Assembly (NCBI RefSeq): GCF_013167895.1
Contig: NZ_BLWC01000001.1
Coordinates: forward strand, 4,092,001 to 4,156,000
From: Streptomyces fulvorobeus
GTDB lineage: Bacteria; Actinomycetota; Actinomycetes; Streptomycetales; Streptomycetaceae
Direction of reading: 5' to 3'
Length of the DNA stretch: 64,000 nt
The position numbers and the translations under genes were made by a program. Shown here piece after piece: positions 20,565 to 39,521 of the stretch (positions are counted from its first letter, which is position 1; each line of letters opens with the position of its first letter). The notes under the pieces are model-generated. The model was given only the letters and a program-made list of their open reading frames with translations. It was not told the DNA's origin and searched no databases.

Positions 20565-21652
20565 GTGTCGCTCACGATCGGAATCGTCGGTCTGCCGAAT
20601 GTCGGCAAGTCGACCCTGTTCAACGCCCTGACCAAGAACGACGTGCTGGCGGCCAACTACCCGTTCGCCACGATCGAGCCGAACGTCGGCGTCGTGGGCG
20701 TCCCGGACCCGCGCCTCGCCAAGCTGGCCGAGATCTTCCGCTCGCAGAAGATGCTTCCCGCCACGGTCGACTTCGTCGACATCGCGGGCATCGTGCGCGG
20801 CGCGAGCGAGGGCGAGGGCCTGGGCAACAAGTTCCTCGCGAACATCCGCGAGTCCGACGCCATCTGCCAGGTCATCCGCGCCTTCAAGGACGAGAACGTC
20901 GTCCACGTCGACGGCAAGGTCTCGCCGAAGGACGACATCGAGACGATCAACACGGAGCTGATCCTCGCCGACCTCCAGTCCGTCGAGAAGCAGATTCCAC
21001 GCCTCCAGAAGGAGTCCCGCCTCCAGAAGGAGAAGGTCGCGGTCCTCGCCGCGGTCGAGGAGGCCCAGAAGATCATGGAGGCGGGCCAGACCCTCTTCGC
21101 CGCGGGCATCACCGCGAACACGGAGAAGGGCCGCCTCCTCCACGAGCTGCACCTGCTCACGACCAAGCCCTTCCTGTACGTCTTCAACGTCGACGAGGAC
21201 GAACTGGTCGACGAGGACTTCAAGAACGAGCAGCGCGCCCTGGTCGCCCCGGCCGAGGCGATCTTCCTCAACGCCAAGATCGAGTCCGAGCTGATCGAGC
21301 TCGACGACGACGAGGCGCTGGAACTCCTCCAGTCGATGGGCCAGGAAGAGCCCGGCCTGGCCACCCTCGGCCGCGTCGGCTTCGACACCCTGGGCCTCCA
21401 GACCTACCTCACGGCAGGCCCGAAGGAGACCCGCGCCTGGACGATCAAGAAGGGCGCGACGGCCCCGAGGCGGCCGGTGTGATCCACACCGACTTCCAGA
21501 AGGGCTTCATCAAGGCCGAGATCATCTCCTACGAGGACCTGATCGAAACAGGCTCGGTGGCCGAGGCCCGCGCCAAGGGCAAGGCGCGCATGGAGGGCAA
21601 GGACTACGTGATGCAGGACGGCGACGTGGTGGAGTTCCGCTTCAACAACTGA
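20565..21652 (+). CDS. ychF: Redox-regulated ATPase/GTPase YchF (OLA1), apparent frameshift, island insertion site
   Basis: The corrected protein is 362 aa, the usual YchF length. It is a ribosome-associated P-loop NTPase that prefers ATP. G1 is [15 protein letters not shown]3 is [10 protein letters not shown], the G4-type motif is NVDEDE, and the C-terminal TGS domain ends [18 protein letters not shown]. The start is GTG 20565 with AGGAAG upstream. At the C-run 21463-21466 one base is missing: as read, the frame stops at 21482 (...TAPRRPV), while the rest of the TGS domain ([18 protein letters not shown]) continues in the next frame to TGA 21652. The last two codons before the stop are supplied by the inserted island: FNN here, whereas the displaced original end at 39396-39413 would encode FNV-stop. 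Confidence 0.92.
21623..21646 (+). repeat. attL: left copy of the 24-bp island boundary repeat
   Basis: These 24 bp, starting GACGTGGTGG and ending CCGCTTCAAC inside the last codons of ychF, recur perfectly at 39384-39407. The flanking bases differ on both sides, which fits a recombination core. Confidence 0.85.
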
Positions 21653-21685
21653 ACTCCACCACGTCGCTGATGTGGTGGAGTTCAG
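21649..21685. repeat. Perfect 14-bp inverted repeat at the left island end
   Basis: CTGAACTCCACCAC and GTGGTGGAGTTCAG flank a 9-nt loop (21663-21671) right at the ychF stop. The left arm is also complementary to GTGGTGGAGTTC within attL. It could terminate ychF transcription or fold as a recombination structure. Confidence 0.7.
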
Positions 21686-21964
21686 CCCGAAAGTACAAGT
21701 GAGTGATGAGGCCGGGATGACCTCGTTCCGACCTCATCAGTCATGCCCGCCATCTTTGACGGTGCACGAAGGGCCTAAGCTGTCCTCCTGGGGTCTGCGT
21801 CACTGCCAGCGGCGGGGCGCCTGCCGGGAGCGTCGAATACGAGCGGCTGGTGCGTCTCGCCGTCAGTACGAGCCGTGACGCCAACTCATCCGTTCAGTCC
21901 CGCCGGCCCACGCTTCTCGTAGCATAAGAGAAGTTCAAACGCGTGGTCGTGACTGGGGGCAGGG
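21653..21964. other. Island left-end non-coding region
   Basis: No gene is seen in these 312 bases. They hold the end of the 14-bp hairpin, CACCACGTCGCTGAT (21657-21671, repeated at 38216-38230), an 8-bp inverted repeat TGATGAGG/CCTCATCA (21704-21739), and a CTTCTC-N9-GAGAAG palindrome before the AIPR gene. Confidence 0.6.
21913..21933. promoter_or_regulatory. Inverted repeat upstream of the AIPR gene
   Basis: CTTCTC-N9-GAGAAG lies 31 bp before the ATG, in an AT-richer stretch with GCATAAGAG. It is a candidate operator or -10 region for the defence gene. Confidence 0.4.
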
Positions 21965-24121: not shown

Positions 24122-24385
24122 GGGCAGCTTCCGGCAACGCCCGACACAGTGACGCGTGTCGGCGAACCAGCTCCGCCTCGGTCTCCTACCGATTCGGCGT
24201 TTGGTGGGCGAGGCGCTAGCGAGGAGCGCGCGGCGCTCTGCGCGAGCCTCGGTGACTTCGATGCGCAAAGTGCACGGCCTCAACGTGAATCGGAAGTCGA
24301 AGTCCCGTCCGACGACGCGTGAGCTGATCCGCGCGGCCGAACCCCCCTTGACCCTGATGCCGAACCTTTCCAGGATGAGGAAGTT

Positions 24386-25225
24386 TCAGGCCCCCTCTGC
24401 GAACCGGGGCCGAGCCGTGTGCCGCGAGATGCGCGGCATCGTCTCGCCTGGTGAACGACGGAGCAGCTTCATGTCGCGGCCCTCGACCCAGGCGTTCCAG
24501 GACTTGAGGTAGTAGAGCAGGTGCTCTCGCGAGTCGTCGCGCCTGCGGTGGGCCTTCCCGGCCGCCAGGTTCAGCAGCGTATTGCGCAGAGTCAGCCGCG
24601 GGTCACCGATGCGCAGCCCCGCACCGGTGACCAGGGCCTCGTGCCAGGGGAGCTGATCGAGCTCGGGACGGGCGTCGGTGGTCGCGTACCAGCCGACCGC
24701 AGCGGCCGTCACGGTGATGCGGAACGCCTTGTTCATCGGGATCGCCGCCCGGACAGCGTCCCGCATACAGGGGTGCTGGTCGAGGACGGTGAGCAGTAGA
24801 TCGTTACTGACGGCGGCGCTCTGCCCGCTCCACGCGGAGTCCGGGGCGGTCAGATAGAGGTGCAGACCGCGCAGAGCGGCGGCCAGGTGGGTGCTGTGCT
24901 CCTCGCCCGCCAGGGCCAAGGCGTCGCGTCCGCTCCGCTTGCGGCCGGTGTCCATCACTGTGAACGCGGACTGCGCCACCCCGCGTGTCACCACGCACTG
25001 CACGGGGATGCCCGCCTTCGCGACCGCCTCCAACCGGTGCTGGCCGTCGATCAGTGCCCCGTGGTCGTCGAAGGCGATGCCCTGGTGGGTGAGCTGCCAC
25101 TCGCCGCGCTCGATCTGCTGGGTGAGCTGCTGGACGAACGCTTTGCTCAGCGGGCGGTTCCTGGTGTTGCACAGCAACCACTCGCGAGCCAGCTCGGGCG
25201 TGATCACTTCTACGTTGCTCTGCAT
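24386..25225 (-). CDS. DGQHR/ParB-like protein, possible regulator of the R-M operon
   Basis: The protein is 279 aa from ATG 25225 (MQSNVEVITPELAREWL), with GGAGGGG 7 nt upstream. It has a ParB/sulfiredoxin-like start: ITPELAREWLLCNTRNRPLS, QQIERGEWQLTHQGIAFD, then ALIDGQHRLEAVAKAGIPVQ. The DGQHR motif is shared with DndB, the regulator of DNA phosphorothioation genes, and with phage and mobile-element proteins. The rest is helical with no further motif. It is divergent from the HTH-methyltransferase gene and shares a 136-bp promoter region that holds a palindrome. A regulatory role is inferred from motif and position; a role in replication or partition of a former mobile element is the alternative. 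Confidence 0.65.
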   Translation of the reverse strand: MQSNVEVITPELAREWLLCNTRNRPLSKAFVQQLTQQIERGEWQLTHQGIAFDDHGALIDGQHRLEAVAKAGIPVQCVVTRGVAQSAFTVMDTGRKRSGRDALALAGEEHSTHLAAALRGLHLYLTAPDSAWSGQSAAVSNDLLLTVLDQHPCMRDAVRAAIPMNKAFRITVTAAAVGWYATTDARPELDQLPWHEALVTGAGLRIGDPRLTLRNTLLNLAAGKAHRRRDDSREHLLYYLKSWNAWVEGRDMKLLRRSPGETMPRISRHTARPRFAEGA

Positions 25226-25272
25226 GACGTCCCCTCCATTGCCATCACCGGCAGCACCCGTCGATAGCAACG

Positions 25273-25301
25273 ATGAGAGCATCGCCTGAAAGCATTGTCA
25301 A
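25273..25301 (-). promoter_or_regulatory. Promoter of the DGQHR gene
   Basis: On the minus strand TTGACA (25296-25301), a 17-bp spacer and TCTCAT (25273-25278). The -35 is a perfect consensus and the -10 is 4/6. It lies 48 bp before the ATG. Confidence 0.6.
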
Positions 25302-25327
25302 ACAGTATTCTGCCGTGCTGTACTGTT
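25301..25327. promoter_or_regulatory. Candidate operator between divergent island genes
   Basis: AACAGTA-N13-TACTGTT, a 7-bp perfect inverted repeat that touches the -35 of the leftward promoter and covers the rightward promoter region. It is placed to control both the DGQHR gene and the methyltransferase operon. Confidence 0.5.
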
Positions 25328-25361
25328 CGTGCGTGTTCGATGAAGACGAAGGGGGCTGCTG

Positions 25362-27446
25362 ATGGCCGCACAGACCACGGTGAGTACCTCCGACATCGCC
25401 CGTATCGCGGACGTCGGCCGCGCGACCGTGACCAACTGGCGGCGCCGCCACTCCGACTTCCCCGCTCCCACGGGCGGTACGGAATCACGTCCCACGTTCA
25501 CGCTGGAGGATGTGGAGGGGTGGCTGGCCGAGCATGGCCGCCTCCCGCAGTTCACCGAGCAGCAGCAGTTGTGGCGTGAGCTGCTGCGAGAGGCCGAGGG
25601 GTCGGGGCTGACTGAAGCGATGGCCCGGGCCGCGCTCTTCCTCGCCTTCCTGGAACGCGAAGGTCACACCTCACGGGAGACGCGTTACCTTCACTACGCC
25701 GAAGGGCCGGACCTGGAACACGAGAGTCTCGGTGACGGCATGCTCGACGAGATCGGCAGAGCACTTCAGGACATGCCTGAGCCGCTCGCCCTGCTGCGTT
25801 CCGCGTCGCTGATGCGTGAGCTCGCGGCTGCCGCGACACGGCAGACGCCGGACGAGGTCCTGTCGGACATGCTCGACCGCTACGCGAGCGAGTCGCGAAG
25901 GCGCGGGCCGGGGACCCCGGCGGCGGTGGCCCACTTCATGGCGACACTGGCCAAGGCCGCCTCGCCGGACGGCGCGCTGAGCGCCGTACTCGACCCGGCA
26001 TGCGGGACGGGGGACCTGCTGGAGGCGGCCCGGATCCAGGGGGCCACGCAGCTTGACGGCCAGGACCGGGAGCTGCATTTGGCCCAGCTGGCCGCGTCCC
26101 GGCTCTCCCTCCGGCTGGGCGGGAAAGGGTACTGCTCTGTCGATGCCGAGGACGCTCTCGCCCGATCCCGGCATACGGGTGGGGAGTTCGACGCGGTCCT
26201 GTGCAATCCCCCGTACAACGAACGTGACTGGGGCGCGGACGAGTTGGCGTACGACTCCCGCTGGGAGTATGGCCTGCCGTCCCGGTCCGAGTCCGAGCTC
26301 GCCTGGGTGCAGCACAGCCTGTCGCGGGTGCGGCCGGGTGGTGTGGTGGTCATGCTGCTGCCGCCGTCCGTCGCCTCCCGGAGTTCTGGGCGGCGGATCC
26401 GGGCGGCGCTCGTACGGCACGGCGCGCTGCGGGCTGTGTTGGCACTGCCTGCCGGGGCCGCTCCGCCGGCGCACATCGGGCTGCATCTGTGGGTCCTGCG
26501 GAGGCCGGGCGGGGGCAACGGCGCAGAGGCCAGCCATGTGCTGTTCATGAACTGCAAGTCGTTGCCGGACATGAACAGCCGTGGCGGGCGTCCCTCCGTC
26601 ACCTACCGAGAGCTGCTTGCAGCGCCTGAGAAGTGTCTTGCCATGCCAGGCGTGTACCGTGCCGTCCCAATCACGGATCTGCTCGACGACACAGTCGACC
26701 TCACGCCCGCGCCACGACTCGCGGGGGAGCGCGGCATGCCGCAGGTAGACGACCTCCGCCGTACCCTGAGCGGCCGTCGCGACAGCCTCGGCTCCGTGCT
26801 GTCGCAGGCATCGGCACTCGCCCCGAGCGACGATTGGGGCGTCTCCCGGACGGGCGGGCCATGGACGATGGCCCCGCTCGCCGATCTGATCCGTACGGGG
26901 GCGCTGACTCTGCTCAAGCCCAAGGCGAAGGGCGGCAGCGGGGATTCGGATGGCGACGATCCCGTCCTCACGGCTGCGGATGTGAACGAGGGGCGCTCCC
27001 CGTCCGGGCGCGGTCCGGCAGGGGATGAGGACGCGGTGCGGATCAAGGTCGGGGACGTGATCATCCCCGGGACCCTGCTGTCCGCGGACAGGACCGCCGC
27101 GCGGGTTGCGGACGACACCGACGCGGGGGCCCTGCTCGGCAGGAACCTGCACCTGCTGCGCCCGGACGAGGCGCGGCTCGACCCGTGGTTCCTGGTCGGC
27201 TTCCTCGCCGACCCGGCCAATATGCAGCGGGCGAGCCAGGGGACGTCGATCGTTCGGGTGGACGCGCGCAGGCTCCAAGTGCCCTTGCTGCCGCTGGAGG
27301 AGCAGCAGACATACGGGGCGGCGTTCCGGCGGCTACACACCTTTACGACGGCTCTGCGCCGGGCTGCGCTCCAGGGTGAGGAGACTGCCGGGAAGTTGCG
27401 GGCCGCGCTCACGACAGGCGCTTTGCGGCCCCCGCCACCGGCCTGA
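25362..27446 (+). CDS. N6-adenine DNA methyltransferase with N-terminal HTH and S-like C-terminus
   Basis: The protein is 694 aa. Residues 7-60 form a MerR/excisionase-like helix-turn-helix (TSDIARIADVGRATVTNWRR, then LEDVEGWLAEHGRLPQ). The catalytic domain has motif I DPACGTGDLLEA (from residue 211) and motif IV NPPY (282-285), so it should methylate adenine in DNA. From about residue 510 it looks like half of a type I specificity subunit: PLADLIRTG, IKVGDVIIPGTLLSAD, LRPDEARLDPWFLVGFL, then VPLLPLEEQQTYGAAFRRL. It thus combines modification, target recognition and a DNA-binding head in one chain. It heads the operon, 92 bp before hsdM. It may be an accessory methylase, a BREX/Pgl-like enzyme or a regulator; the fusion is unusual. 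Confidence 0.8.
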   Translation: MAAQTTVSTSDIARIADVGRATVTNWRRRHSDFPAPTGGTESRPTFTLEDVEGWLAEHGRLPQFTEQQQLWRELLREAEGSGLTEAMARAALFLAFLEREGHTSRETRYLHYAEGPDLEHESLGDGMLDEIGRALQDMPEPLALLRSASLMRELAAAATRQTPDEVLSDMLDRYASESRRRGPGTPAAVAHFMATLAKAASPDGALSAVLDPACGTGDLLEAARIQGATQLDGQDRELHLAQLAASRLSLRLGGKGYCSVDAEDALARSRHTGGEFDAVLCNPPYNERDWGADELAYDSRWEYGLPSRSESELAWVQHSLSRVRPGGVVVMLLPPSVASRSSGRRIRAALVRHGALRAVLALPAGAAPPAHIGLHLWVLRRPGGGNGAEASHVLFMNCKSLPDMNSRGGRPSVTYRELLAAPEKCLAMPGVYRAVPITDLLDDTVDLTPAPRLAGERGMPQVDDLRRTLSGRRDSLGSVLSQASALAPSDDWGVSRTGGPWTMAPLADLIRTGALTLLKPKAKGGSGDSDGDDPVLTAADVNEGRSPSGRGPAGDEDAVRIKVGDVIIPGTLLSADRTAARVADDTDAGALLGRNLHLLRPDEARLDPWFLVGFLADPANMQRASQGTSIVRVDARRLQVPLLPLEEQQTYGAAFRRLHTFTTALRRAALQGEETAGKLRAALTTGALRPPPPA

Positions 27447-27538
27447 ACCCGTGCGAGCCTCCCCGCACACACGACACACTGAGCGCGTACGTACCGCACT
27501 GAAGTAATCGCCGCCCCGGCGGCCCGGAAAGGACAACG

Positions 27539-29563
27539 GTGGAGCAGGACCACAGCAGGCACTCGGAGATGATCAACTTCATCTGGAAAGTCGCCGACTT
27601 GCTGCGCGGCGACTTCCGGGCGCATGACTACGGGAAGATCATTCTTCCGTTCACGGTGCTGCGGCGTCTGGACTGTGTGCTGGAGCCGACGAAGGTCGAA
27701 GTGCTCGCGGAAGTTGCGGAGATGGAAGAGCGAGGTCGACCGCTGGCCTACCGGGAGATGAAGCTCCGTGAGGTTGCGGGGCACGGCTTCTACAACACCA
27801 GCGAACTCACCTTCAAGCTGATCGCTAAGGATCATTCACAGGCGCAGACGCTGCTGAAGTCGTACTACGGCGCCTTCTCCGAAAACGCCCGGAAGATTCT
27901 CGACCGCTACAACTTCGAGAAGCACATCGCCGATCTGCAGGAGAAGGGGCTGCTCTACCAGGTGGTTGGCGAATTCGCCAAGATCGATCTGCGGCTACCG
28001 AAGGGGCCGGACGACAAGGACGGCATCGACAACCATCAGATGGGCTACATCTTCGAGGAGCTCATCCGGAAGTTTTCCGAAGACAACCCCGCAGGTGAGC
28101 ACTTTACACCGCGCGAGGTGGTAAGGCTGATGGTGAACCTGCTGCTGGCCCCGGATGAAGGGGAGGGCAAGACCAGGACGGTCCTCGACCCAGCCTGCGG
28201 GACGGGCGGCATCCTCAGCGAGACCGAGGAGCACATCAAGCGCAAGGCCCCGCAAACGACTGTCGGGCTGTACGGGCAGGAGCTGAACCCTGAGTCGCAC
28301 GCCATCTGCCAGTCCGACCTGCTGATCAAGGGGCAGGAACCGGACAACATCAAGTACGGGAACTCCTTCACCCAGGATGGCCACAAGGAGCAGAAGTTCG
28401 ACTATCTGGTCGCGAACCCGCCCTTCGGAGTGGAGTGGAAGAAGGTCAAGCAGGATGTGGAGCGGTTCGCCAGAAACGGGGATCGTTTCCAAGCGGGACT
28501 GCCGAGGATCAGTGACGGTTCCTTCCTCTTCCTCCAGCACATGATCTCGAAGATGAAGCCGGCGCGTCCTGACGGGAAGGGCGGCTTCGAGGGCGGAAGC
28601 CGTATCGCGATCGTCTTCAACGGGTCGCCGCTGTTCAGCGGTGGGGCGGGCTCCGGCGAGTCCGACATCCGGCGGTGGATCTTGGAGGAAGAGGACCTGC
28701 TGGAGGCCATCGTGGCTCTGCCGGACCAGCTCTTCTACAACACCGGCATCTCCACCTACTTCTGGATCCTGTCGAACCGGAAGCACCGGGGCCTCAAGGA
28801 CAAGGTCATCTTGCTGGATGCGCGAGGCCAGTGGACGAAGATGCGGAAATCGCTGGGCGACAAGCGAAAAGTCATCTCCGATTCCCAGATCGCAGCGGTG
28901 ACGGACATGTACATGGAGGCGGTGGCTGCGGCGGCTGATCCTGAACAGTCGCCGCCGGAGAACGTGAAGATTCTCGAAACGAAGGAGTTCGGTTACCAGC
29001 GCATCACCGTGGAAAGGCCGTTGAAGTTGCGCTTCGAGGTCACGGAAGAGACGCTGACAGCTCTCCGGGCTTCGGCTGCGATCGACAAGGCGGTTGATGC
29101 GGGGGCGTTCACGGATGCGCTGAAGTTGCTGGTGGGCGAGCGTTGGGCGACAAAGGCGGAGGCGTGGGACGCGATTCGTCAGGCGATGGTGCCAGCGGGC
29201 CTGATGATGCCGACGGGCAAGCCCTTCCAGAAGGCGCTACGGGATGTGGTGGGGGTGCGCGACCCCGAGGGCGAGGAGCAGTACCTCAAAAAAGGCGACC
29301 CGCACCCGGAACCGGACCCCGACCTTCGTGACAACGAGAACGTGCCGCTGGAGGAGGACATCGACGCGTATATGAAGCGCGAGGTGTTGGAACACGTGCC
29401 GGACGCGTGGGTGGACCACACGAAGACGAAGATCGGGTACGAGATTCCATTCAGTCGGCAGTTCTATGTGTATGCGCCGCCGATGCCGTTGGAGGCGATT
29501 GACGCGGAGCTGATGTCACTGGAGACCGAGGTCCGACGGCTGCTTGGGGAGGTGACGAAGTGA
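27539..29563 (+). CDS. hsdM: Type I restriction-modification methyltransferase subunit
   Basis: The protein is 674 aa; GTG 27539 follows AAAGGA. An N-terminal helical domain (EMINFIWKVADLLRGDF) precedes the methylase core with motif I DPACGTGGIL (from residue 218) and motif IV NPPFG (293-297). HFTPREVVRLMVNLL and the long C-terminal region (about 490-674) match the longer HsdM subclass. It methylates adenine in the recognition site and holds HsdS in the M2S complex. The stop overlaps the hsdS start by 4 nt, indicating translational coupling. Confidence 0.93.
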   Translation: MEQDHSRHSEMINFIWKVADLLRGDFRAHDYGKIILPFTVLRRLDCVLEPTKVEVLAEVAEMEERGRPLAYREMKLREVAGHGFYNTSELTFKLIAKDHSQAQTLLKSYYGAFSENARKILDRYNFEKHIADLQEKGLLYQVVGEFAKIDLRLPKGPDDKDGIDNHQMGYIFEELIRKFSEDNPAGEHFTPREVVRLMVNLLLAPDEGEGKTRTVLDPACGTGGILSETEEHIKRKAPQTTVGLYGQELNPESHAICQSDLLIKGQEPDNIKYGNSFTQDGHKEQKFDYLVANPPFGVEWKKVKQDVERFARNGDRFQAGLPRISDGSFLFLQHMISKMKPARPDGKGGFEGGSRIAIVFNGSPLFSGGAGSGESDIRRWILEEEDLLEAIVALPDQLFYNTGISTYFWILSNRKHRGLKDKVILLDARGQWTKMRKSLGDKRKVISDSQIAAVTDMYMEAVAAAADPEQSPPENVKILETKEFGYQRITVERPLKLRFEVTEETLTALRASAAIDKAVDAGAFTDALKLLVGERWATKAEAWDAIRQAMVPAGLMMPTGKPFQKALRDVVGVRDPEGEEQYLKKGDPHPEPDPDLRDNENVPLEEDIDAYMKREVLEHVPDAWVDHTKTKIGYEIPFSRQFYVYAPPMPLEAIDAELMSLETEVRRLLGEVTK

Positions 29564-30741
29564 GCATCGTCCGCGTAAAGACCGTTGTCCAGAACTTCAC
29601 GATTAAGTCAGACGGGTTGGCTCACCCTTTTATCGGGCTGGAGAATCTAGAGAGCGGAACTGGCAGGCTGCTAGTTGATCCGATTCCATGCAAATCTGCT
29701 GAAGACAGTCTTGTGCATCAACGGGGAGACGTCCTATTCAGTAAGCTGCGCCCTTATCTGGCTAAGTCTTACCTTCCGCAGATGTCGGGGACGGCCACAG
29801 GGGAGCTTCTCGTGCTGCGGCCGAAAAAATTGATCAGCACTCGCTTTCTGATGTACTTGACCCTTTCGGGCCCTTGGGTCGAATGGGCCAATGTTTCTGC
29901 TTATGGAACGAAGATGCCTCGCACCTCATGGGAGCTGATGGGTGAGTTCCGGTTTTCCTTGCCGTCGCTTGAAATGCAGGAACGTATCGCGGAGTTTCTA
30001 GATGGTGAGATCGAAAAGATCGATGCCATCAGCCAAGCAAGGAAGCGGCAAGGTGTTCTGCTTGGTCGGCATCGAGCGGTAGCCCTTTCCGGCCTCTTCA
30101 CGCGAGCCAGCTCTTCGGTGCCGACTCGGTTGAAATACCTAATGCGAAACAAGCCGCGTTATGGTGTTCTGGTTCCAGAATTCACTGACAATGGTGTGCC
30201 CTTCGTGCGTATCAACGACCTGCTGGACTTGCGGGGGCGAGCAGCTTCTCTTGTGCGCATTCCTGAGGATCTATCGCAGCAGTACGCCCGTACCCGTGTC
30301 CAGCCGAACGACATTCTGCTCAGTGTTGTCGGAACTCTAGGGCGCGCCGCATTGGCACCAGCCGAGTTGGAAGGAGCCAATATCGCGCGTGCGGTCGCTG
30401 CACTGCGGGTTCGGCATGACGTCGATCCCGGCTTGTTCATCCGCTGGATCGAGACCGCTGACTTCATGCGTCAAGCCCTCAACGCGACGGGCAGTGACAC
30501 AGCACAGCCGACTCTGGGTATGGAAGACCTCGCGAACTTCAACCTCCGGTGGCCGACAGACGCTCACGAGCAGCGGCGACTGGCCCGCGAGGTGGAAGAG
30601 GTGGCTAAGCATCACGACGAACTGGCTGCTTGCTACGAGAAGCAAACCCGTCTGCTCTCCGAGCGTCGCCGCGCCCTGATTACCGCCGCAGTGACCGGCC
30701 AAATCGATGTAACAACCGCACGGGGGGTGCGAGTTCCGTGA
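29560..30741 (+). CDS. hsdS: Type I restriction-modification specificity subunit
   Basis: The protein is 393 aa with two target-recognition domains, each followed by a conserved helix (EMQERIAEFLDGEIEKIDAI and EQRRLAREVEEVAKHHDELA). Composition is clearly less GC-rich than the neighbouring genes in the first TRD (about 29570-30150), which is usual for exchangeable specificity domains and signals transfer. It determines the bipartite DNA site recognised by the complex; the site cannot be read from sequence. The ATG-like start GTG 29560 lies inside the end of hsdM, and its stop overlaps the hsdR start. Confidence 0.92.
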   Translation: MSIVRVKTVVQNFTIKSDGLAHPFIGLENLESGTGRLLVDPIPCKSAEDSLVHQRGDVLFSKLRPYLAKSYLPQMSGTATGELLVLRPKKLISTRFLMYLTLSGPWVEWANVSAYGTKMPRTSWELMGEFRFSLPSLEMQERIAEFLDGEIEKIDAISQARKRQGVLLGRHRAVALSGLFTRASSSVPTRLKYLMRNKPRYGVLVPEFTDNGVPFVRINDLLDLRGRAASLVRIPEDLSQQYARTRVQPNDILLSVVGTLGRAALAPAELEGANIARAVAALRVRHDVDPGLFIRWIETADFMRQALNATGSDTAQPTLGMEDLANFNLRWPTDAHEQRRLAREVEEVAKHHDELAACYEKQTRLLSERRRALITAAVTGQIDVTTARGVRVP

Positions 30742-33700
30742 TTCACAGCAACCCGTTCAGCAACAAAGGCTCGAAGGAACCCCAGCACAAGGTCCACCAC
30801 GAAGAGGCGTTCCGCGTCGCGATCATCGAGTGGCTCCTCGCCCACGGCTGCGAGGGGGGCCTCGCCCTCCGCTGGAGGATGGGCCTCAGCTCTGACTACC
30901 GCCGTGACCTCGCCCTCGACACCGCGCAGGTCTTCGCCTTCATCGGGGCCACCCAGAACAAGGCTTGGCTGAGCTACGCCGGCTACCACGACGACGACCC
31001 CGACATCGCCCAGCGTGCGTTTGCCGAGCACCTCGCCCGGTGGATCGACAAAAGGGGCACCCTCCAGACCCTCCGCCAAGGGGTCAAGGCGCACGGCATC
31101 CACTTCGACCTCGCCTACTTCAAGCCGTCACAGACGATCGACCCCGGCGCCCTCACCTTGTACAGCAAGAACCGGCTCACCGTAGTCCGTGATCTCGTCT
31201 ACGCCACCCGCCGTGTGGCGGACGGCGCGACCAGCAACGACGAGGGCAACAAGCCCGACCTCACTCTCTTCGTCAACGGCATCCCCGTTGCCACCGCAGA
31301 GTTGAAGAACCCGCTCACCGGCACCGGTACAGCCGAGGCCATGCACCAGTACCGGACCACCCGGGACCACCGGGAACCGCTCTTCGCCAAGCGCGCCCTC
31401 GCGCACTTCGCGGTCGACCCGGACGCTGTCTTCCTCACCACCCAGTTGAAGGGTAGGGACACCGTCTTTCTGCCTTTCAACACCGGTTCCGACGGCCCCG
31501 GAAACCGTGGCGGTGCCGGAAATCCGGCGATCCCCGACGCGGCTCCCGCCGGCACGTACCGGACCTCGTACCTCTGGGAACAGATCTGGCACCCGGACAC
31601 CTGGCTGGATCTTCTGGAGCGGTACGTTCACCAGAGCACGGAGAAGAAGGATGACGGCAGCACCGTCAAGAAGCTGATCTTTCCGCGCTTCCACCAGTGG
31701 CACGCCGTGAGGGAGTTGACCGCGCACGCCGCGCGGCACGGGGCGGGGCACAACTACCTGGTCATGCACTCCGCGGGGTCCGGCAAGTCGAACACCATCG
31801 CCTGGCTCGCCCACCGGCTCTCCGACCTGCACGATGCACGACACGAGTCGGTTTTCGACAAGGTACTGGTGATCACGGACCGTACGGTCCTGGACGATCA
31901 GCTGCAGGAAACCATAGGTGACTTCCAGCAGACCAATGGCCTGGTCCTCGGCATTGGCGGCAAGGGCGGCTCGAAGTCGTCGCAGCTGGCGGATGCGCTC
32001 GCGCAGGAAACGGCGAAGATCCTCATCGTCACCCTCCAGACCTTCCCCGCGCTGCTTGCCTACCTGCGCAAGTCGCCCGTCGAGATACGCGGCAGTCGCT
32101 TTGCGATCGTCGTCGACGAAGCGCACTCATCCCAGTCGGGCGAAGCCGCCACCGACGTCAAGAAGGCCCTGCGCGATCTCGGCCTCGACGCCGACGACGA
32201 AGAGACCGGAGCCACGGAGGCCGAGGCGGAAGTGTCGGAGCCCACCACCGACGAGCGTCTCGCCGCGTCCGCCCGTGCCCGTGGTCAGAGCGCGAACCTC
32301 TCCTACTTCGCCTTCACCGCCACCCCCAAGCACAAGACGCTGAAGCTCTTCGGCACCAAGAACCCGCTCACCGGCCTTTATGAGCCCTTCCACACCTATT
32401 CGATGCGGCAGGCGATCGAAGAGAAGTTCATCCTTGACCCGCTGTGCCAGTACGTGAGGTACGAGACGTACTGGCAGATGGTCAACGAGGACCCGCACGA
32501 GGCGGACCGCGAGGTCGACAAGAAGAAGGCCAACGCACTGCTCGCCTTGACCGCGCACGGTCACACCGAGACCGCCGTGCAGCGGGCCAGGGTGATCGCG
32601 GAGCACTTCATGGCCCACACCCGCAGGCGGCTGGGAGGGCGGGCCAAGGCCATGGTGGTGTGCCGTTCGCGGTACGGCGCGCTCCAGCTGTACCGGCAGA
32701 TCGTCAAGTACTTCGACGACAACGGCTATCCGGACCCCGGGGTGCTGGTTGCCTTCTCCGGCTCTCTCAAGGAGGGAGAGGAGGAGGTCACCGAGGCGAA
32801 GCTCAACGGCTTCTCGGAGGGCGAGCTACGCAAGAGGTTCGCGTACACCGCGGCCGACGACAAGAAGGGCACGTCAGCCAGGAGCCGGCGCGAGTACCGG
32901 ATCCTGGTGGTCGCGGACAAGTACCAGACGGGCTTCGACCAGCCGCTGCTGACCACGATGTACGTCGACAAGAAGCTGAAGGGTGTCGCCGCTGTGCAGA
33001 CGCTCTCCCGCCTTAACCGCACGCATCCTCTCAAGGACCAGCAGGATCTTTGCGTCCTGGACTTCGCGAATGACGCGCACGACATCCAGAGCGAGTTCCG
33101 GCCGTTCTTCGAAGAAGCCCAGACCATGCCCACCGACCCCAATCTGATCTATGACGCGCAGCATCAAGTCATGGATCCGCCGATCCTGTTCGTCGACGAG
33201 ATGCAGTCGTTCGTTGCGGCGTACCTCAGGGCACAGGACGCGGCGGCCGGGGACGGCACCCGCTGGGAGAAGCTGCACGCGGAGCTCTACCGGCACACCG
33301 ACCCCGCCCGCGACAGGTTCATCGTGCTTAGGGAAAGCGAATTGCCGGCCGAGCACGAAAGCGCCGAGCAGTTCCGGGCCGACCTCGCCGACTATGCGCG
33401 CAAGTACAGCTTCCTTGCGCAGATCGTGCCGTACATCGACATCGATCTGGAGCGCCTGCACCTCTTCGGGCAGCATCTGCTGCGCAGGCTGCCCCGCGCG
33501 AGGGAGGTGCGGTGGATATCGGAGAAACCCGGCTTGAGGCCGTGCGCCTGGAGAAGGTTGGGGAGGTCAACGTGAGCCTGACTGCCGAGGGCGCGGTCGA
33601 ACTGAAGGGCTTCGGCAGTGGTGCCGGTGGGGCGGCTGAACCCGACAAATCGCCGCTGGCCAAGGTGATCGACCAATTCAACGAGCGGTTCGGTACGGAC

Positions 33701-33973
33701 TTTACCGAGGACGACTTCATCGTGCCGCTGCGGGCGGTGATGGCCGACGAGAAGGTGCGGCGGTCCGCCTCGCAGGACGACGAGGACGGATTCAAGCACG
33801 TCATCGACCCGGTGCTGGATGCCGAGATGATGAAGCATATCGACTCCGTTCGTGAGTTGGGGGACCACTACTTCCACGACGACCGCGATCACCGGGAGTC
33901 GATCAAGCGTGACCTGCGGCGGCACGCCTTCCGCATGCTGCGCCGCGAACTGGGGATGGACGACGCGGCCTGA
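30738..33973 (+). CDS. hsdR: Type I restriction endonuclease subunit R, apparent frameshift
   Basis: The corrected protein is 1078 aa, normal for HsdR. GTG 30738 overlaps the hsdS stop. The nuclease part has KPDLTLFVNGIPVATAELKN (the Asp...Glu-x-Lys site near residue 173). The SF2 translocase motor has Walker A HSAGSGKSNTIAWL (about 343-356), DEAH in VVDEAHSSQSGE (about 458) and motif VI QTLSRLNR. As read, the frame leaves the family at the C-run 33492-33495 and stops at 33575. Restoring one C gives LLRRLPPREGGAVDIGETRL and joins the C-terminal domain that ends at 33973. The same error type occurs elsewhere, so the enzyme is probably intact; true inactivation or phase variation cannot be excluded from this sequence. 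Confidence 0.88.
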
Positions 33974-33993
33974 ACCCGCCGCGGGCAGCGCGG

Positions 33994-34028
33994 ACCGTCC
34001 ACGGCAACTCCCCGTAACCGTGGACGGT
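33994..34028 (+). terminator. Terminator of the R-M operon
   Basis: ACCGTCCACGG and CCGTGGACGGT, an 11-bp stem with a 13-nt loop, followed by TTTACGG, 20 bp after the hsdR stop. It separates the restriction operon from the kinase-helicase pair. Confidence 0.7.
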
Positions 34029-34089
34029 TTACGGCGACACGCGCCACACTGGGCACACATGATCACGGGGCACGGGGAGGACAGAGCAG

Positions 34090-35697
34090 GTGGCGCCAGA
34101 AGTACGAGTCATCGCAGAACGCTATGAGCTGCGGACCAGGATCAGCACCGGGGGTATGGGACAGGTCTGGCTTGGCTACGACCCGATTCTGAACCGGGAC
34201 GTAGCGGTCAAACTCATCCGCCGGGACCTGACCACGCCGGGCCCGGACGCGGAAGAGCTGGCCGAGCGCTTCAAGCGGGAAGCCCGGGTTACAGCCAAGT
34301 TCGACCACCCAGGGGTGCCCGCCGTCCATGACGCGGTGCTCGACCGGGAGGCGGACGGCGTCTACATGGTGATGCAGCTGGTGCGTGGCGCCCTGCTCAC
34401 CGACATCCTCGCCAGGCCCGGTGTGCTGCCGGTCCCCTGGGCGGTTTCCGTCGCCGCGCAGGTCTGCTCGGTGCTCTCGTACGCTCACGCCGTGCCCGTC
34501 GTTCACCGCGACTTGAAGCCGGACAACATCATGGTCGCCGGGGATGGCACCGTGAAGGTTCTCGACTTCGGAGTCGCCGCGGTACTCGGAACCGATGTCA
34601 CCAAGCTGACGTCCACCGGGCACATCATCGGCACCCGCCGCTACATGTCGCCCGAGCAGATCCAAGCGGCCGCGGTCAGTCCGCGCAGCGATCTCTATGC
34701 GCTGGGCTGCATCCTTCATGAACTGCTCGCCGGGAAACCGCCGTTCACGGCCGAGGCAGAGTTTCAGCTGATGGAGGACCACATGTACCGGGCGCCGGCG
34801 CCGCTATGCGGGCTGCGCGCTGAGGTGGACCCGGCACTGGAGCGGCTGGTTCTGGATCTGCTGGCCAAGGTGCCCCATCAGCGGCCTGACTCAGCCCAGG
34901 ATGTCTACGACCGTCTGGTGCCCTTTCTCCCCGCACCCGACCCTGAGCGGACCACCGAGCAGCGGGGGCAGGAAGCCACTGACCCCACGGGGCCTTACCG
35001 TCGTCCGCTCGCGCCCCGTCCCCGCCCGAGCGAGAAGGCCGTGTACACGCCGACCGCTGTGGACTCGCCACTGCGGTCGGCCGCCCCTGCTGTACCGGAT
35101 GAGGAACTGCAGCAGGCCCGCGGGCACGCAGCGGCGCTCGTCGAGGAGGAGCGGTTCTCCCAGGCATCCGGAATGCTGGAGGACGTCCTGGCCCGCGCTG
35201 CTGCGGTGCGTAGCGCTTCCGAACCGCTGATGGTCGGCCTCCGTCTTGTCCACGCGCTCGCGCTCTTTTGTGACGATGACTACGGACGAGCACTGCCGGA
35301 GTACGAGGCACTCGTTGAAGTATTGGAAGCCGCAGGTCCTAACCGTGGCGAGGATGCCCTTTACTGCCGCAGGCAGGCCGCCTTCTGCCGGATGGAGCTC
35401 GGCGACAGCGAAGGTGCGCTGGCCGAGTTCGAGGCCGTACTGGGACAGATGAGGCAGGGGCTGCCGGACAGCGACATGGATGTCCTTGAGGTACGCAGGC
35501 ATGTCGGCCTGCTGCTTCAGGCGGTCGACCGGCTCCGGGAGGCGGTCGAGGCGTTGATGCCGCTGTACCGGGACCTAATGGCCGAGTACGGACCGGACGC
35601 CCCGGAGACCGCCCAGGTGCGGGACGCACTCGTGCGTATCCGGCTGCGGACCTCGCGTACAACCGGCTCCGGCAGGGCCGTCACAGGCAGAAATTGA
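34090..35697 (+). CDS. Soluble Ser/Thr protein kinase with TPR-like tail
   Basis: The protein is 535 aa from GTG 34090, with GGGGAGG about 11 nt upstream. Residues 10-270 are a Hanks-type kinase: glycine loop STGGMGQVW, VAVK (Lys41), catalytic HRDLKPDN (139-146), DFG (159-161) and GTRRYMSPEQ. All catalytic residues are kept. A Pro/Arg linker (about 285-335) leads to a helical region (about 340-520) with repeated A-x-F/L patterns (ALPEYEALVEVLEAAG, ALAEFEAVLGQMRQGL, AVEALMPLYRDLMAEYG) that fits tetratricopeptide repeats. There is no membrane helix and no PASTA domain, so it is cytosolic. The helicase gene starts 17 bp downstream, so the two are almost certainly one operon, and the helicase or its toxin-like head may be the substrate. 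Confidence 0.85.
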   Translation: MAPEVRVIAERYELRTRISTGGMGQVWLGYDPILNRDVAVKLIRRDLTTPGPDAEELAERFKREARVTAKFDHPGVPAVHDAVLDREADGVYMVMQLVRGALLTDILARPGVLPVPWAVSVAAQVCSVLSYAHAVPVVHRDLKPDNIMVAGDGTVKVLDFGVAAVLGTDVTKLTSTGHIIGTRRYMSPEQIQAAAVSPRSDLYALGCILHELLAGKPPFTAEAEFQLMEDHMYRAPAPLCGLRAEVDPALERLVLDLLAKVPHQRPDSAQDVYDRLVPFLPAPDPERTTEQRGQEATDPTGPYRRPLAPRPRPSEKAVYTPTAVDSPLRSAAPAVPDEELQQARGHAAALVEEERFSQASGMLEDVLARAAAVRSASEPLMVGLRLVHALALFCDDDYGRALPEYEALVEVLEAAGPNRGEDALYCRRQAAFCRMELGDSEGALAEFEAVLGQMRQGLPDSDMDVLEVRRHVGLLLQAVDRLREAVEALMPLYRDLMAEYGPDAPETAQVRDALVRIRLRTSRTTGSGRAVTGRN

Positions 35698-35714
35698 CCG
35701 AAGGAGCTTCTCGC

Positions 35715-37859
35715 ATGGCACAGCTGGCTCTCTCGGTCCGGTTCCTTGATGAATTCGGGAAGCTCGACTCCAAGGCGCGGTCCGGGGCCGTGAAGACGGC
35801 TCTGAAGTTCCAGCAGCTCACGCTCAAACAGCTCTGGTCGGACGCCGGACTCGATTTCAAGCAGCCCAAGGGGGCCAGGGACAAGCATATTTACACCTGC
35901 CGTATCGACAGGTTCTACCGGGGAGTCGTACTCGCGCCGGGCACCGGCGAGGACTTTCTGCTGCTGCGTGTGATGGCGCACGACGACGCCTACGCCTGGG
36001 CTTCCAAGCAGGTGCCGAGCGTAAACGCGGTGACCCATGGACTGGAGATCCGTGACGTCGTCACAGTGGAGCAGCTGGTGCCGGCATGGGAGGCGGAGGC
36101 GGCCACCGCCGCGGCGGAACCTCTCTTCGCTCGTCACCCGGACGGAGATCTTCGTGGTCTGGGTATCGAGGATGATGTGCTGCGCGCGGCCCGTTCTCTG
36201 ACCTCCAAGAAGCAGCTCGATGCATTCGCTCCGTTGATGCCGGAGGATCAGTGGCAGGTGCTGCAGTTCCTCGCCGAGGGACTGAGCGTGCAGACGGTAT
36301 GGGGTGAGCTGGTCGCCTTCCGTGCCCGGAACGGCGCGCTTGCGGTGGACCGTACAGACCTGTCCAGCGCGATGCGGAACACCCCATCGCGTATTGCCCT
36401 GGTGACTGGCCCGGGAGAACTGTCCGACATCCTCGACAAGCCGTTCGCCGCGTGGAGGATCTTCCTGCATCCGTCTCAGCGGTATATGGCGTACCGGCCC
36501 AGCTACTCGGGTCCTGCCCAAGTGACCGGTGGACCGGGCACGGGGAAAACTGTGGTGGCACTTCATCGGGTCAAGCACCTCCTGGAGCATCTACGGACCG
36601 GCGAGCGCATCCTGCTCACCACGTACACCGGGGCGCTCACGTCGGCTCTTCGCGAGGGGCTGGCCCTGCTGATCGAAGACGAGGAGCTGCGCGGTCGGGT
36701 GGACGTGTCGACGGTCAACGCCCTGGCACGAGAAATTGTTGAACCACATGACACCGTCCGGCGTGCTTACCTCGATGGGGCGCAGGAGACTGCTCTCTGG
36801 GGAGAGATCGGCGACCAGCTGGATTTGCCGTGGAACGGCCAGTTCCTGGCCCAGGAGTACAAGCATGTCATCTTGGCACAGGGCCTGCGCTCGCTCGACG
36901 CCTACTGTGAGGCGTCCAGAAGCGGTCGGGGCTCCCGGCTCGCCTCCGCTCGACGGCACGAGGTCTGGCAGGCGGTGGAGGCGTTCCAGGTCGCGCTCGA
37001 CAAGCTTTCCGCGCGTACGCATCTGGGTGTGTGCGATGAAGCGGCGTTGCGGGTCACCGCATCCGGAGTGCAGCCCTACCGGCATGTGGTCGTTGACGAG
37101 GCACAGGACCTGCACCCCGCCCAGTGGAGGCTACTGCGGGCCGTGGTGCCCAAACGCCCTGACGACTTGTTCATTGCTGGCGACCCGCATCAGCGCATCT
37201 ACGACTCGAAGGTGTCTCTGAGATCGTTGGGGGTCGCCGTGACCGGACGTTCCACCCGGCTGCACAGGAACTACCGCAGCACGCAGGAAATTCTCGCTTG
37301 GGCGGTTTCGTTGCTGGACGGTCGGCCTGTGGAGCAGTTGGAGAACGGGAGTGCGGACACGCTGGCAGGTTTCCGGTCCTCGCTCCGCGGCGCCCGCCCG
37401 ACCGTGTGTGCCACGGATGACCCGGATGCGGAACTGACCGAGCTGGTGGCGCGCATCCGAGAGTGGGCCGACAGCGGAGTTGAGTTCTCTGATATCGCGG
37501 TGGCTGCCCGATTCAACAAGATCGTGTACCGCGTGGCGCAGCGGTTGCGGGACGAGGGAATCCCTACGGTCCGGCTACGGCAAGACGGAAGCGCAGACGC
37601 TGAGGGCGTCAGGGTCGCGACCATGCATTCTCTCAAAGGGTTGGAGTTCAGGTGTGTGGCGGTCGTTGGGGTGCGTGAAGGGACGGTTCCGTACCCAGGA
37701 GCCATCACGCCAATGGAACTTGACCCCATCCAGCACCACACGGATCTGACAGCGGAGCGTTGTCTGCTCTTCGTAGCCTGTACGCGCGCACGCGACCGAC
37801 TGCACGTGTCGTGGAACGGTCCAGCGAGCCGCTTTCTCGCTGAAGTCGGAGCGGCATAG
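35715..37859 (+). CDS. SF1 (UvrD-like) helicase with RelE-like N-terminal domain
   Basis: The protein is 714 aa. ATG 35715 follows GAAGGAG; the first seven codons of the longer frame are leader. Residues 1-98 resemble a RelE/ParE toxin fold: a basic helical start (GKLDSKARSGAVKTALKF) and a strand-rich end (RDKHIYTCRIDRFYRG, DFLLLRVMAHDDAYAWA). Then come the SF1 motifs: Walker A GGPGTGKTVVAL (about 272), DEAQDLHPAQW (about 461), LFIAGDPHQRIYD, HRNYRSTQEILAW, ATMHSLKGLEFRCVAVVG and FVACTRARDRLHVSW. It should be an ATP-driven 3'-5' translocase; the N-terminal part may bind or cut RNA on ribosomes or DNA, which is inference. It is paired with the kinase gene and is the last gene of island unit 1. 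Confidence 0.82.
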   Translation: MAQLALSVRFLDEFGKLDSKARSGAVKTALKFQQLTLKQLWSDAGLDFKQPKGARDKHIYTCRIDRFYRGVVLAPGTGEDFLLLRVMAHDDAYAWASKQVPSVNAVTHGLEIRDVVTVEQLVPAWEAEAATAAAEPLFARHPDGDLRGLGIEDDVLRAARSLTSKKQLDAFAPLMPEDQWQVLQFLAEGLSVQTVWGELVAFRARNGALAVDRTDLSSAMRNTPSRIALVTGPGELSDILDKPFAAWRIFLHPSQRYMAYRPSYSGPAQVTGGPGTGKTVVALHRVKHLLEHLRTGERILLTTYTGALTSALREGLALLIEDEELRGRVDVSTVNALAREIVEPHDTVRRAYLDGAQETALWGEIGDQLDLPWNGQFLAQEYKHVILAQGLRSLDAYCEASRSGRGSRLASARRHEVWQAVEAFQVALDKLSARTHLGVCDEAALRVTASGVQPYRHVVVDEAQDLHPAQWRLLRAVVPKRPDDLFIAGDPHQRIYDSKVSLRSLGVAVTGRSTRLHRNYRSTQEILAWAVSLLDGRPVEQLENGSADTLAGFRSSLRGARPTVCATDDPDAELTELVARIREWADSGVEFSDIAVAARFNKIVYRVAQRLRDEGIPTVRLRQDGSADAEGVRVATMHSLKGLEFRCVAVVGVREGTVPYPGAITPMELDPIQHHTDLTAERCLLFVACTRARDRLHVSWNGPASRFLAEVGAA

Positions 37860-38096
37860 GAGTCTCCTCGTGTGCGCCGCACTGGCAATCCAGCTTGAGG
37901 CTAGGGCCCGGCGCCCAGCCGTCGGGGGAATCTTACGGTCACGAGAGCACGGTTGCTTCGTCCGCGCATCAAGCGTCACTTTCGCTGAAAGGGGCGGTTT
38001 AGCGTCGTGCATCTTGTCTGGTTACGAAGTGATGGAAAAGCCTTAGGGTCTGACGCTCGAGCTGCGTAGGCGTACGGGAGGCGTCGTGCCTGCGTG

Positions 38097-38136
38097 GTGC
38101 TGGGATGAGACGCCCGTGCTGGGACAGTGCTGGGAT
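38097..38136 (+). repeat. GTGCTGGGA(T/C) repeat cluster 1
   Basis: Copies lie at 38097-38106, 38116-38125 (final base C) and 38127-38136; the last two are spaced 11 bp apart. They sit 50-90 bp before the middle att core, as arm-type recombinase sites would. Confidence 0.75.
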
Positions 38137-38158
38137 GCCCCCTGCAAAACCCACGTTT

Positions 38159-38230
38159 CCGCAGGTGGGAGCTCTGTACTACAGATTCCGCTTCAACGTG
38201 TAGTGGCTGACATATCACCACGTCGCTGAT
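38159..38230 (+). repeat. Middle att-like site between the two island units
   Basis: CCGCAGGT (38159-38166), 19 nt, TTCCGCTTCAACGT (38186-38199), then CACCACGTCGCTGAT (38216-38230). The first two elements with the identical 19-nt spacing occur at the right end (39369 and 39396). The core and the 15-mer occur at the left end (21635 and 21657). The site therefore joins a right end of unit 1 to a left end of unit 2. Confidence 0.75.
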
Positions 38231-38292
38231 CTGGCAAACGCAGAGGTCAGATGGGGTCCGACTCTTCGGGGTTGGGCCCTTGGCTCTTTCCC

Positions 38293-38403
38293 GTGCTGGG
38301 ATGGTGCTGGGATAGCTGACCCCCCGTCACCTGTCGTCATCCCTGGTCATCCATACCGTGCTGGGATTGGGCTGGGACGTGGATGCCCTGCCGGTGCTGG
38401 GAT
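38293..38403 (+). repeat. GTGCTGGGAT repeat cluster 2
   Basis: Perfect copies at 38293-38302, 38304-38313, 38358-38367 and 38394-38403, plus a one- to two-mismatch copy at 38369-38378. Pairs are again 11 bp apart, about one helical turn. Confidence 0.75.
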
Positions 38404-38533
38404 CCGCACCGGTGAGTGGCTGAACCGTGGGACGCTGGCGCTTATCGATGTCAAGCAAATGCCCTGCTCAGCCAACGAGGCAGTAAGCCTCAACCTGCTC
38501 AAGGGCGACTTGCACTGAGTAGGCGCCGAGGGG

Positions 38534-38941
38534 TCAGACGTCCTTGATCTGTACGCGGTCGCCGCACAGTTTCGACCAGTCGTCGCGGTCCGAGGTCAGC
38601 ACGAGTACGGGTGCCGGAGAGCGGAGCGCCATCGCGGCGACGAGGACGTCGATGGCGTACTTGTGGCCGTGTAGGCCGTCGGCATCGCTCAGTAGCTGCA
38701 CAGCGGTGAGGCTGTCCGCTTGGGTGACGTCTTGGACCTGAAGGCGGGAGAGCAGCCAGCGCAGCCGGGCGGTGTCCGTTTTCCCGTAGACGGCCTCGAC
38801 CACCGTCAGGGCAGATACGAGGACGGGCACGCCCACGCGTCGAGCGGCCTCGATTCGGGTGATCATCTGGCGGTCGTTGCGCAGTAGCAGCGACAGCGCC
38901 TGGGAGTCGAGCACCAGGCACCTGGCCGCGGGCTCCTTCAT
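38534..38941 (-). CDS. VapC-type PIN-domain toxin
   Basis: The protein is 135 aa. PIN nuclease acidic residues are in place: Asp in CLVLDSQALSLLL, Glu in LTVVEAVYGKTD, Asp in HKYAIDVLVAAMA and the final TSDRDDWSKL. Such proteins cut tRNA or rRNA when free of antitoxin. The ATG overlaps the antitoxin stop (ATGA), the usual coupled arrangement with antitoxin first. It is the only cargo of island unit 2, together with its antitoxin. Confidence 0.88.
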   Translation of the reverse strand: MKEPAARCLVLDSQALSLLLRNDRQMITRIEAARRVGVPVLVSALTVVEAVYGKTDTARLRWLLSRLQVQDVTQADSLTAVQLLSDADGLHGHKYAIDVLVAAMALRSPAPVLVLTSDRDDWSKLCGDRVQIKDV

Positions 38942-39213
38942 GCGGCGCTGTCGTTCGACGCGTAGGGCGCCGGTGAGTCACCGAACAGTTCGCTCTGCGC
39001 GGCCTGGACTTCGGCGTCGCTCAGTGGCTCGTGCTCGGTTTCGTAGGCGGCCACGATCTCGGCGAGGCCGTCCATGGCGAGCTGATGCTGGACCGCCGCG
39101 GTCACGTACGCGGACACGCCGCGCTTGCCGGTACGTGTGCGCAGAGCACCTAGGAGTTCCGCGGGCATCGAGACGGAGATGTTCTCCGTGCCTCCGGGGC
39201 GGGGTGACTTCAT
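38938..39213 (-). CDS. VapB-type antitoxin
   Basis: The protein is 91 aa from ATG 39213 (MKSPRPGGTENISVSMP). The N-terminus ENISVSMPAELLGALRTRTG resembles a ribbon-helix-helix DNA-binding strand and helix. The C-terminal half is acidic (YETEHEPLSDAEVQAAQSELF), as in antitoxins that wrap the PIN toxin. It should repress its own operon together with the toxin. It ends in a 4-nt overlap with vapC. Confidence 0.82.
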   Translation of the reverse strand: MKSPRPGGTENISVSMPAELLGALRTRTGKRGVSAYVTAAVQHQLAMDGLAEIVAAYETEHEPLSDAEVQAAQSELFGDSPAPYASNDSAA

Positions 39214-39335
39214 GGGCGCCAGTCTAGTACAGAAAGTATTACAACGCCTGGAATGCTGTGCGGCCCGTACCCGAAGTGGGCGTCGATGCGTAGTCTTGGC
39301 GCTTTCAGACCTTCTTGTACTTTGCAGTGAATCCC

Positions 39336-39356
39336 GTGCTGGGATGGTGCTGGGAT
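39336..39356 (+). repeat. GTGCTGGGAT pair next to attR
   Basis: Copies at 39336-39345 and 39347-39356, 11 bp apart, end 12 bp before CCGCAGGT and 39 bp before TTCCGC of the right core. Confidence 0.75.
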
Positions 39357-39368
39357 GCGCTCACATAA

Positions 39369-39444
39369 CCGCAGGTCAGACAGGACGTGGTGGAGTTCCG
39401 CTTCAACGTCTAATACGTTCGGCGAAAGGCCGTCTGACCTGCGG
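39369..39444. repeat. 13-bp inverted repeat flanking attR
   Basis: CCGCAGGTCAGAC (39369-39381) and GTCTGACCTGCGG (39432-39444) enclose the attR core. The left arm is island DNA and the right arm is chromosomal, so the match is either part of attB/attP homology or chance. Confidence 0.5.
39384..39407 (+). repeat. attR: right copy of the 24-bp island boundary repeat
   Basis: Identical to 21623-21646. The sequence continues GTCTAA, which would end an uninterrupted ychF with the usual ...FNV-stop, so this is the displaced native 3' end of ychF. Confidence 0.85.
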
Positions 39445-39521
39445 CGGAGCGGGTTGGGCGGCCTGTGCGGTCCGCACGGAGTCCGCAGCGTGCTGGATGG
39501 GCCCGGCACGCGGGGGAGCGG

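Follow-up and report, generated by a model that had tools for sequence, protein, structure and literature searches.

The 10-bp direct repeats GTGCTGGGAT in the 64,000-nucleotide stretch of Streptomyces fulvorobeus DNA analysed here (the window) are most likely arm-type binding sites of a tyrosine integrase family whose members insert DNA into the final codons of ychF, a reading to which we assign a probability of roughly 0.86. The preliminary description had already suggested arm-type sites of a tyrosine recombinase, and the comparative tests support it: this reading is favoured because the repeats share one geometry at dozens of ends, because an integrase gene lies near one of the end types, and because the 3′ half of the motif largely follows the lineage of the integrase. 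The geometry of the repeats, their linkage to and co-variation with integrase genes, and the absence of recognised recombinases from the elements in the window are all apparent from comparison of related sequences.

Eight exact copies of the 10-mer lie on the + strand, at 38097, 38127, 38293, 38304, 38358, 38394, 39336 and 39347, together with two degenerate copies in the same orientation at 38116 (one mismatch) and 38369 (two mismatches), and the three clusters of like-oriented repeats reported originally are therefore confirmed. The spacing of exactly 11 bp that had been attributed to the pairs holds for four of them (38116/38127, 38293/38304, 38358/38369 and 39336/39347), but the copies at 38097 and 38394 stand alone. 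Shuffled versions of the window contained a mean of 0.13 exact copies as against the eight observed, and eight or more were reached in 0 of 100 shuffles. The statement that the motif is absent elsewhere in the window is correct for exact copies, none of which lies outside 38097–39356, but not for matches with one mismatch, two of which are found at 30779 (−) and 52445 (+); matches with up to two mismatches are at chance level across the window (61 found, 61.2 expected). Equal frequency throughout the genome, which had been named as grounds for abandoning the idea, is not what was observed: 8 of the 13 exact copies in the 6.63-Mb genome fall within these 1,260 bp (the motif read backwards, as a control, occurs five times), and all four genome-wide occurrences of the 21-mer pair (≤3 mismatches) are in 38097–39356.

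Table 1. Features of the ychF-associated array, in window coordinates
Feature	Position	Strand	Remarks
ychF, target host gene	20565..21652	+	Pfam MMR_HSR1 and YchF-GTPase_C, in two different frames; start codon chosen from sequence
Left-most core TTCCGCTTCAACAACTGA	21635..21652	+	ychF/element 1 junction; no adjoining 10-mer
Element 1 cargo	21965..37859		AIPR/AbiU-like protein, two N6 methylases, HsdS, HsdR, protein kinase, UvrD-like helicase, two genes without assignment
Element 1 right-end arm-type 10-mers (R-A)	38097..38136	+	38097, 38116 and 38127, at 89, 70 and 59 bp before the core
Second core TTCCGCTTCAACGTGTA	38186..38202	+	Element 1 right end and element 2 left end; arms on both sides
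Element 2 left-end arm-type 10-mers	38293..38403	+	38293, 38304, 38358, 38369 and 38394, at +107, +118, +172, +183 and +208 from the core
Predicted VapC-like PIN-fold toxin gene	38534..38941	−	AlphaFold model pLDDT 79; best Foldseek matches VapC15 and other VapC
Putative antitoxin gene	38938..39213	−	Overlaps toxin gene start (38938–38941); co-occurs with toxin gene in related loci
Element 2 right-end arm-type 10-mers (R-B)	39336..39356	+	Two copies, 60 and 49 bp before the core
Third core TTCCGCTTCAACGTCTA	39396..39412	+	Right border of the array, then chromosome; uninterrupted site in 4 relatives

The recombination core corresponds to the last codons of ychF. The sequence TTCCGCTTCAACGT(G/C)TA is present twice, at 38186 and 39396, flanked by the repeats, and its first 12 letters recur at the end of ychF at 21635; the clusters do lie beside right island ends, as first proposed, in that they flank these two copies of the ychF 3′ end. 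When the chromosomal flank to the right of 39412 was used as query against 61 genomes, strong matches (E 2.5e-43 or better) were obtained in four genomes besides its own, and in all four ychF runs directly into this flank. The uninterrupted site in these relatives, along with the core copies, indicates that 21.65–39.4 kb is DNA inserted at the ychF 3′ end, and the core copy at 38186 divides it into two tandem elements, element 1 (21.65–38.2 kb) and element 2 (38.2–39.4 kb); both the insertion and its tandem structure are deduced from this comparison. Judged by its sequence, the junction at 38186, with arms on both sides of the core, has the layout of an attP site. The ychF reading frame itself is split near 21,465, with the N-terminal part ending at 21482 and the C-terminal part continuing in another frame to 21652, which reflects either a sequencing error or a real frameshift in this assembly.

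The paired 10-mer (≤1 mismatch) was found in 63 of 392 Streptomyces genomes and its backwards control in none. An exact pair occurs in at least 119 stretches of GTDB contigs; among those listed, 118 are Streptomyces by title and one is a cyanobacterial MAG (L087), where three 10-mers 11 bp apart at 5759–5790 lie without a ychF core and may represent chance, another element or contamination. In many species, left ends carry 10-mers near +107, +118, +172, +183 and +208 from a ychF-like core. Right ends are of two types: R-A ends have 10-mers at −89/−70/−59 from the core, and R-B ends have them at about −60/−49, also at −59/−48 and in a few cases at −57/−46. All three end types are present in the window, with R-A and a left end around 38186 and R-B before 39396. 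Multiple copies of a short motif at fixed spacing on both sides of the core are the arrangement by which arm-type sites are recognised, and the conservation of the 10-mers themselves is partly a product of selection, since GTGCTGGGAT ends were gathered mostly via the repeat.

The window contains no recognised cognate integrase, and the link to an integrase is therefore drawn through relatives. A search for the repeat next to integrase genes in related elements, proposed at the outset and carried out in Streptomyces, revealed, for 8 of 14 R-A ends, a tyrosine integrase homologue no more than 6 kb away (five near full length, the other three being fragments of 57, 141 and 122 residues), and for the R-B ends none (0 of 37) within the 1.5–6 kb of interior examined. 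For these counts duplicate ends were removed and at least 1.5 kb of interior was required, with 6 kb or more examined for 9 of the 14 R-A and 20 of the 37 R-B ends. In seven of the eight cases the integrase match ends 101–161 bp before the R-A core; in the eighth (L208) the distance is 2,075 bp. Two members of the family match PF00589 (E 4.9e-9 and 1.9e-15), and the integrase model is closest to the Tn1549 and lambda integrases (Foldseek, 16–18% identity); its first 80 residues, where the arm-binding domain is expected, are poorly modelled (block means 34–70). Searching the 392 Streptomyces genomes with the integrase protein, four candidates per genome being scored, gave 43 matches in 38 genomes, and 30 of the 43 matching loci were fetched. 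Among phage and plasmid records, at E 1e-20, a related integrase was found in two records of one phage (29.7% identity) and in no plasmid. No complete element was found that combines an intact integrase with GTGCTGGGAT arms at each end: the two arrays that have a closely related intact integrase and were followed as far as ychF (L208 and L209) lack these 10-mers at the ychF-side end, and a third locus (L185) has both arms but only an integrase fragment.

The arms vary along with the integrase. At integrase loci the variants differ in the second half of the motif, which reads GTGCTGGGAT, GTGCTGACCT/ATTC/ACTT, GTGCTGGAT or GTGCTGACT, and are mostly spaced alike, by 19 or 20 plus 11 bp; L167 carries another variant. 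A GTGCTGnnnn triplet with this spacing follows the integrase gene in 17 of the 30 loci found by integrase similarity alone, and in 20 of 33 when three repeat-found loci are added, compared with 0 of 90 control segments from the same loci; in 13 of the 30 it is missing near the gene (for example where the gene is truncated, where the target is another one or where gene and core are far apart). When simply pairs of GTGCTG at a distance of 11 bp were counted, 16/30 loci had one downstream, 1/30 upstream and 0/30 on the other strand, and the ychF core (≤1 mismatch) lies downstream of the integrase in 16 of the 30 fetched loci. Arm similarity tracks integrase similarity (Mantel r 0.66, 0 of 9999 permutations, n = 20 including the three repeat-found loci), a correlation that partly reflects shared descent and includes near-duplicate loci (L161/L162). 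Two insertions (L214 and L222) have the variant GTGCTGACT at their left and right ends alike, and two junctions (L212 and L213) have GTGCTGGAT on either side; other junctions, such as L161, join different variants. Letters that vary in the 3′ half with integrase lineage, and the same variant at both ends, are what arm-type sites predict. However, there are exceptions, as the L047 integrase is 57% identical to that of L093 and yet has GTGCTGGGAT arms, and the L175 integrase fragment is 75% identical and yet has GTGCTGGAT arms, so that there is no strict one-to-one correspondence between arms and integrases. Two loci with integrase relatives of 42% identity (L179 and L182) show the same triplet layout, here with a TerD gene whose 3′ end is the insertion site. 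In L179 the TerD coding end, TTCGGCGTCAACGTCTAA, resembles the ychF core in an orientation opposite to the arms. At L168, CRISPR-like repeats (CTGCTCCCCGCACGCGCGGGGATGGTCCC) were noted slightly more than 200 bp after an integrase match.

We infer that the integrase binds the 10-mers and that the sites still work. In the proposed mechanism, the N-terminal part of the integrase would hold the 10-mers on either side of the core and link them to it, in the manner of phage lambda and ICEs, and strand exchange would take place in the shared TTCCGCTTCAAC(GT) segment. As no recombinase is recognised in element 1 or element 2, any movement would need an integrase supplied by a co-resident or incoming element. 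This suggests that small, integrase-poor islands at the ychF end could move only if another element provides the enzyme.

Element 1 has a core and arms at its right end and a core without 10-mers at its left. The right end is highly similar to that of L093, which follows an integrase gene; to the left of 38186, no integrase remnant was detected when 22 integrases were compared with 37860–38186 by tblastn (best E 0.097). No recombinase is recognised among the cargo, which comprises restriction-modification and other defence-like genes, none of the genome's PF00589 or PF00239 matches falling in this interval, and the protein kinase is PD-T4-6/mad6-like. The 10-mer-free left-end type is rare (4 of 392 genomes; besides the window, loci L259, L260 and L261 show it) and is probably the end of a different type of element that uses the same site. 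Given such a left end, element 1 may be a hybrid. Beside the ychF stop, this left end (21635–21690) contains an inverted repeat, GAACTCCACCAC/GTGGTGGAGTTC.

Element 2, at 1.2 kb, consists of two ends and two small genes and is the smallest complete element in the set. It retains both attL and attR, with core and arms at 38186–38403 and 39336–39412, and contains neither integrase nor transfer genes, nor any PF00589 or PF00239 match. Its gene pair is VapBC-like, comprising a predicted PIN-fold toxin and an overlapping putative antitoxin, neither of which scores above a family cut-off in Pfam. A block, CTTCTTGTACTTTG, is conserved immediately before the R-B arms, both in the window (39311–39324) and at other R-B ends, whether or not these carry the toxin pair; an accessory factor might bind there. 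A conserved hairpin-like segment at the left ends had raised the suspicion of a terminator, and a terminator scan of 37900–39500 found none.

Complete elements were surveyed in 40 fetched regions plus the window, the regions having been picked mostly because both ends had matched. By the rule used there are 15 complete left-to-right elements of 1.2 to 17.2 kb, 12 of them with a PIN-type gene; further cargo in the group includes type I restriction-modification, AbiU/AIPR-like and YoeB/YefM genes. The right end is R-B in 14 of the 15, all without a member of the integrase family, and the sole R-A element has an integrase fragment. No PF00589 or PF00239 match was found inside the 14 R-B elements (E 0.001, matches listed, positions compared by eye), one PF00589 match lying just outside the left core in L202. 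The 40 regions, some of which end early, contain 28 left ends; 14 of these are without a recognised right partner in the same region, although for three of the 14 (L216, L217 and L219) there is one in the adjoining region. Judged by their sequences, the R-B elements resemble cis-mobilizable elements or else members of a dedicated non-autonomous lineage. The latter is hinted at by R-B being an end type of its own that was not seen with the integrase, although a single old loss followed by exchange of cargo could have given rise to it as well. It is tentatively proposed, with the odds somewhat against it, that the R-B elements are such a lineage rather than products of random decay, made up of the ends, a usual VapBC-like stabiliser and swappable restriction-modification or other cargo, and living, by virtue of the arm sites they retain, off a ychF-targeting integrase from other elements. 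If so, they would be the integrase-level counterpart of MITEs or satellites, spreading defence genes through Streptomyces.

A related possibility, which is compatible with an origin as arm sites, is that the elements have decayed and lost the ability to recombine, leaving the 10-mers as relics. Element 1 lacks an arm-bearing left end, half of the left ends have no recognised partner in their own region, and the S. fulvorobeus genome has no close cognate integrase (best 28% identity), all of which favour decay. The integrase family is also barely enriched in repeat-bearing genomes (8 of 63, compared with 6.1 expected, with four candidates per genome scored), and this near-absence of enrichment speaks against mobilisation in the present hosts. 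On the other hand, intact ends are found on both sides of the 15 complete elements, in regions mostly picked by matching both ends. As the conservation of the ends is partly due to selection, it does not settle whether they are relics; for this reason decay is given more weight, and the dedicated lineage and (slightly) the arm-site reading less, than each would otherwise receive, though we still regard decay as rather unlikely.

The protein that binds the 10-mers could instead be another participant in the same reaction, either a directionality factor (Xis/RDF) or a host protein that bends DNA. Proteins of these kinds, such as RdfS and BldC, are described in the available text of PMC11963761 as binding phased direct repeats beside att cores, but the presence of several copies per arm at both ends and the variation of the 3′ letters with integrase lineage are a better fit to the integrase, and this possibility is improbable. 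Operator sites of the adjoining VapBC-like pair are a still poorer explanation. At a distance of up to 2.5 kb, such a pair does accompany 36 of the 73 left ends and 18 of the 37 R-B ends, and its transcription mostly points away from the arms. However, the repeats also occur with no pair within that distance at 14/14 R-A, 37/73 left and 19/37 R-B ends, which led us to reject the operator, and the motif changes along with the integrase, at TerD too. The consensus at R-B and left ends is, moreover, similar with and without the pair (these ends being mostly repeat-found and their 10-mers partly selected), which makes it unlikely that the repeats are its operator. Iterons of a replication origin, the other option entertained in the preliminary description, would account for the direct orientation and for the spacing of about one helical turn per pair, but were discarded as next to negligible, since no initiator gene was recognised in the neighbouring genes scanned and since in dozens of genomes the copies flank insertion ends at a constant distance from a recombination core.

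Our results, starting from a 10-bp motif, identify a group of islands that is widespread and shares a single target gene, and mark ychF as an attachment site for Streptomyces integrases. They also give a rule that can be tested in vitro, namely that the letters of the arms largely follow integrase lineage, with exceptions, and a concrete case of defence and toxin-antitoxin genes that possibly travel on ends alone.

The Tn1549 and lambda integrases, which are the best structural matches although distant in sequence, have an arm-plus-core architecture. Among the literature matches listed, the GTGCTGGGAT 10-mer was not found and ychF is not named as an attachment site for a Streptomyces integrase; in the passages available, a satellite prophage is placed upstream of ychF in Streptococcus, and the other mention of ychF concerns Campylobacter fitness. 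The integrase-less R-B elements resemble the CIMEs of the ICESt1 type, which, in the excerpt of PMC5704250, keep attL and attR without integrase or transfer genes and lie in tandem at one target. CIMEs are, however, regarded there as decayed ICEs or IMEs, whereas the R-B ends form a separate type not seen with an integrase and often accompanied by a VapBC-like pair. Tandem islands at a single gene with the integration module missing are also known at ssrA in Dehalococcoides, where 15 without this module are considered possible cis-mobilizable elements by the authors; these involve a serine recombinase and the ssrA target, and arm repeats are not described in the available portion of that report (PMC3146451). 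The element PAISt of Streptomyces turgidiscabies, as presented in the accessible part of PMC4057263, is similar in its insertion at a gene end, right-end tyrosine recombinase, modular excision and one integrase-less module, but differs in its bacA target, 8-bp palindrome and far larger modules. Accretion and decay are likewise features of Streptomyces AICEs, which use tRNA and other targets and carry conjugation genes (PMC9513070, in excerpt). With regard to the arms, the parallel is the ICEMlSym-R7A IntS site, in which a tyrosine integrase acts with five 10-bp arm motifs, TGKTGGTATC, around the core, all of them required for efficient integration, according to the available text of PMC11963761. 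The wording of this motif is close to TGCTGGGAT, even though ICEMlSym-R7A carries its own integrase and transfer genes and has another host and another target.
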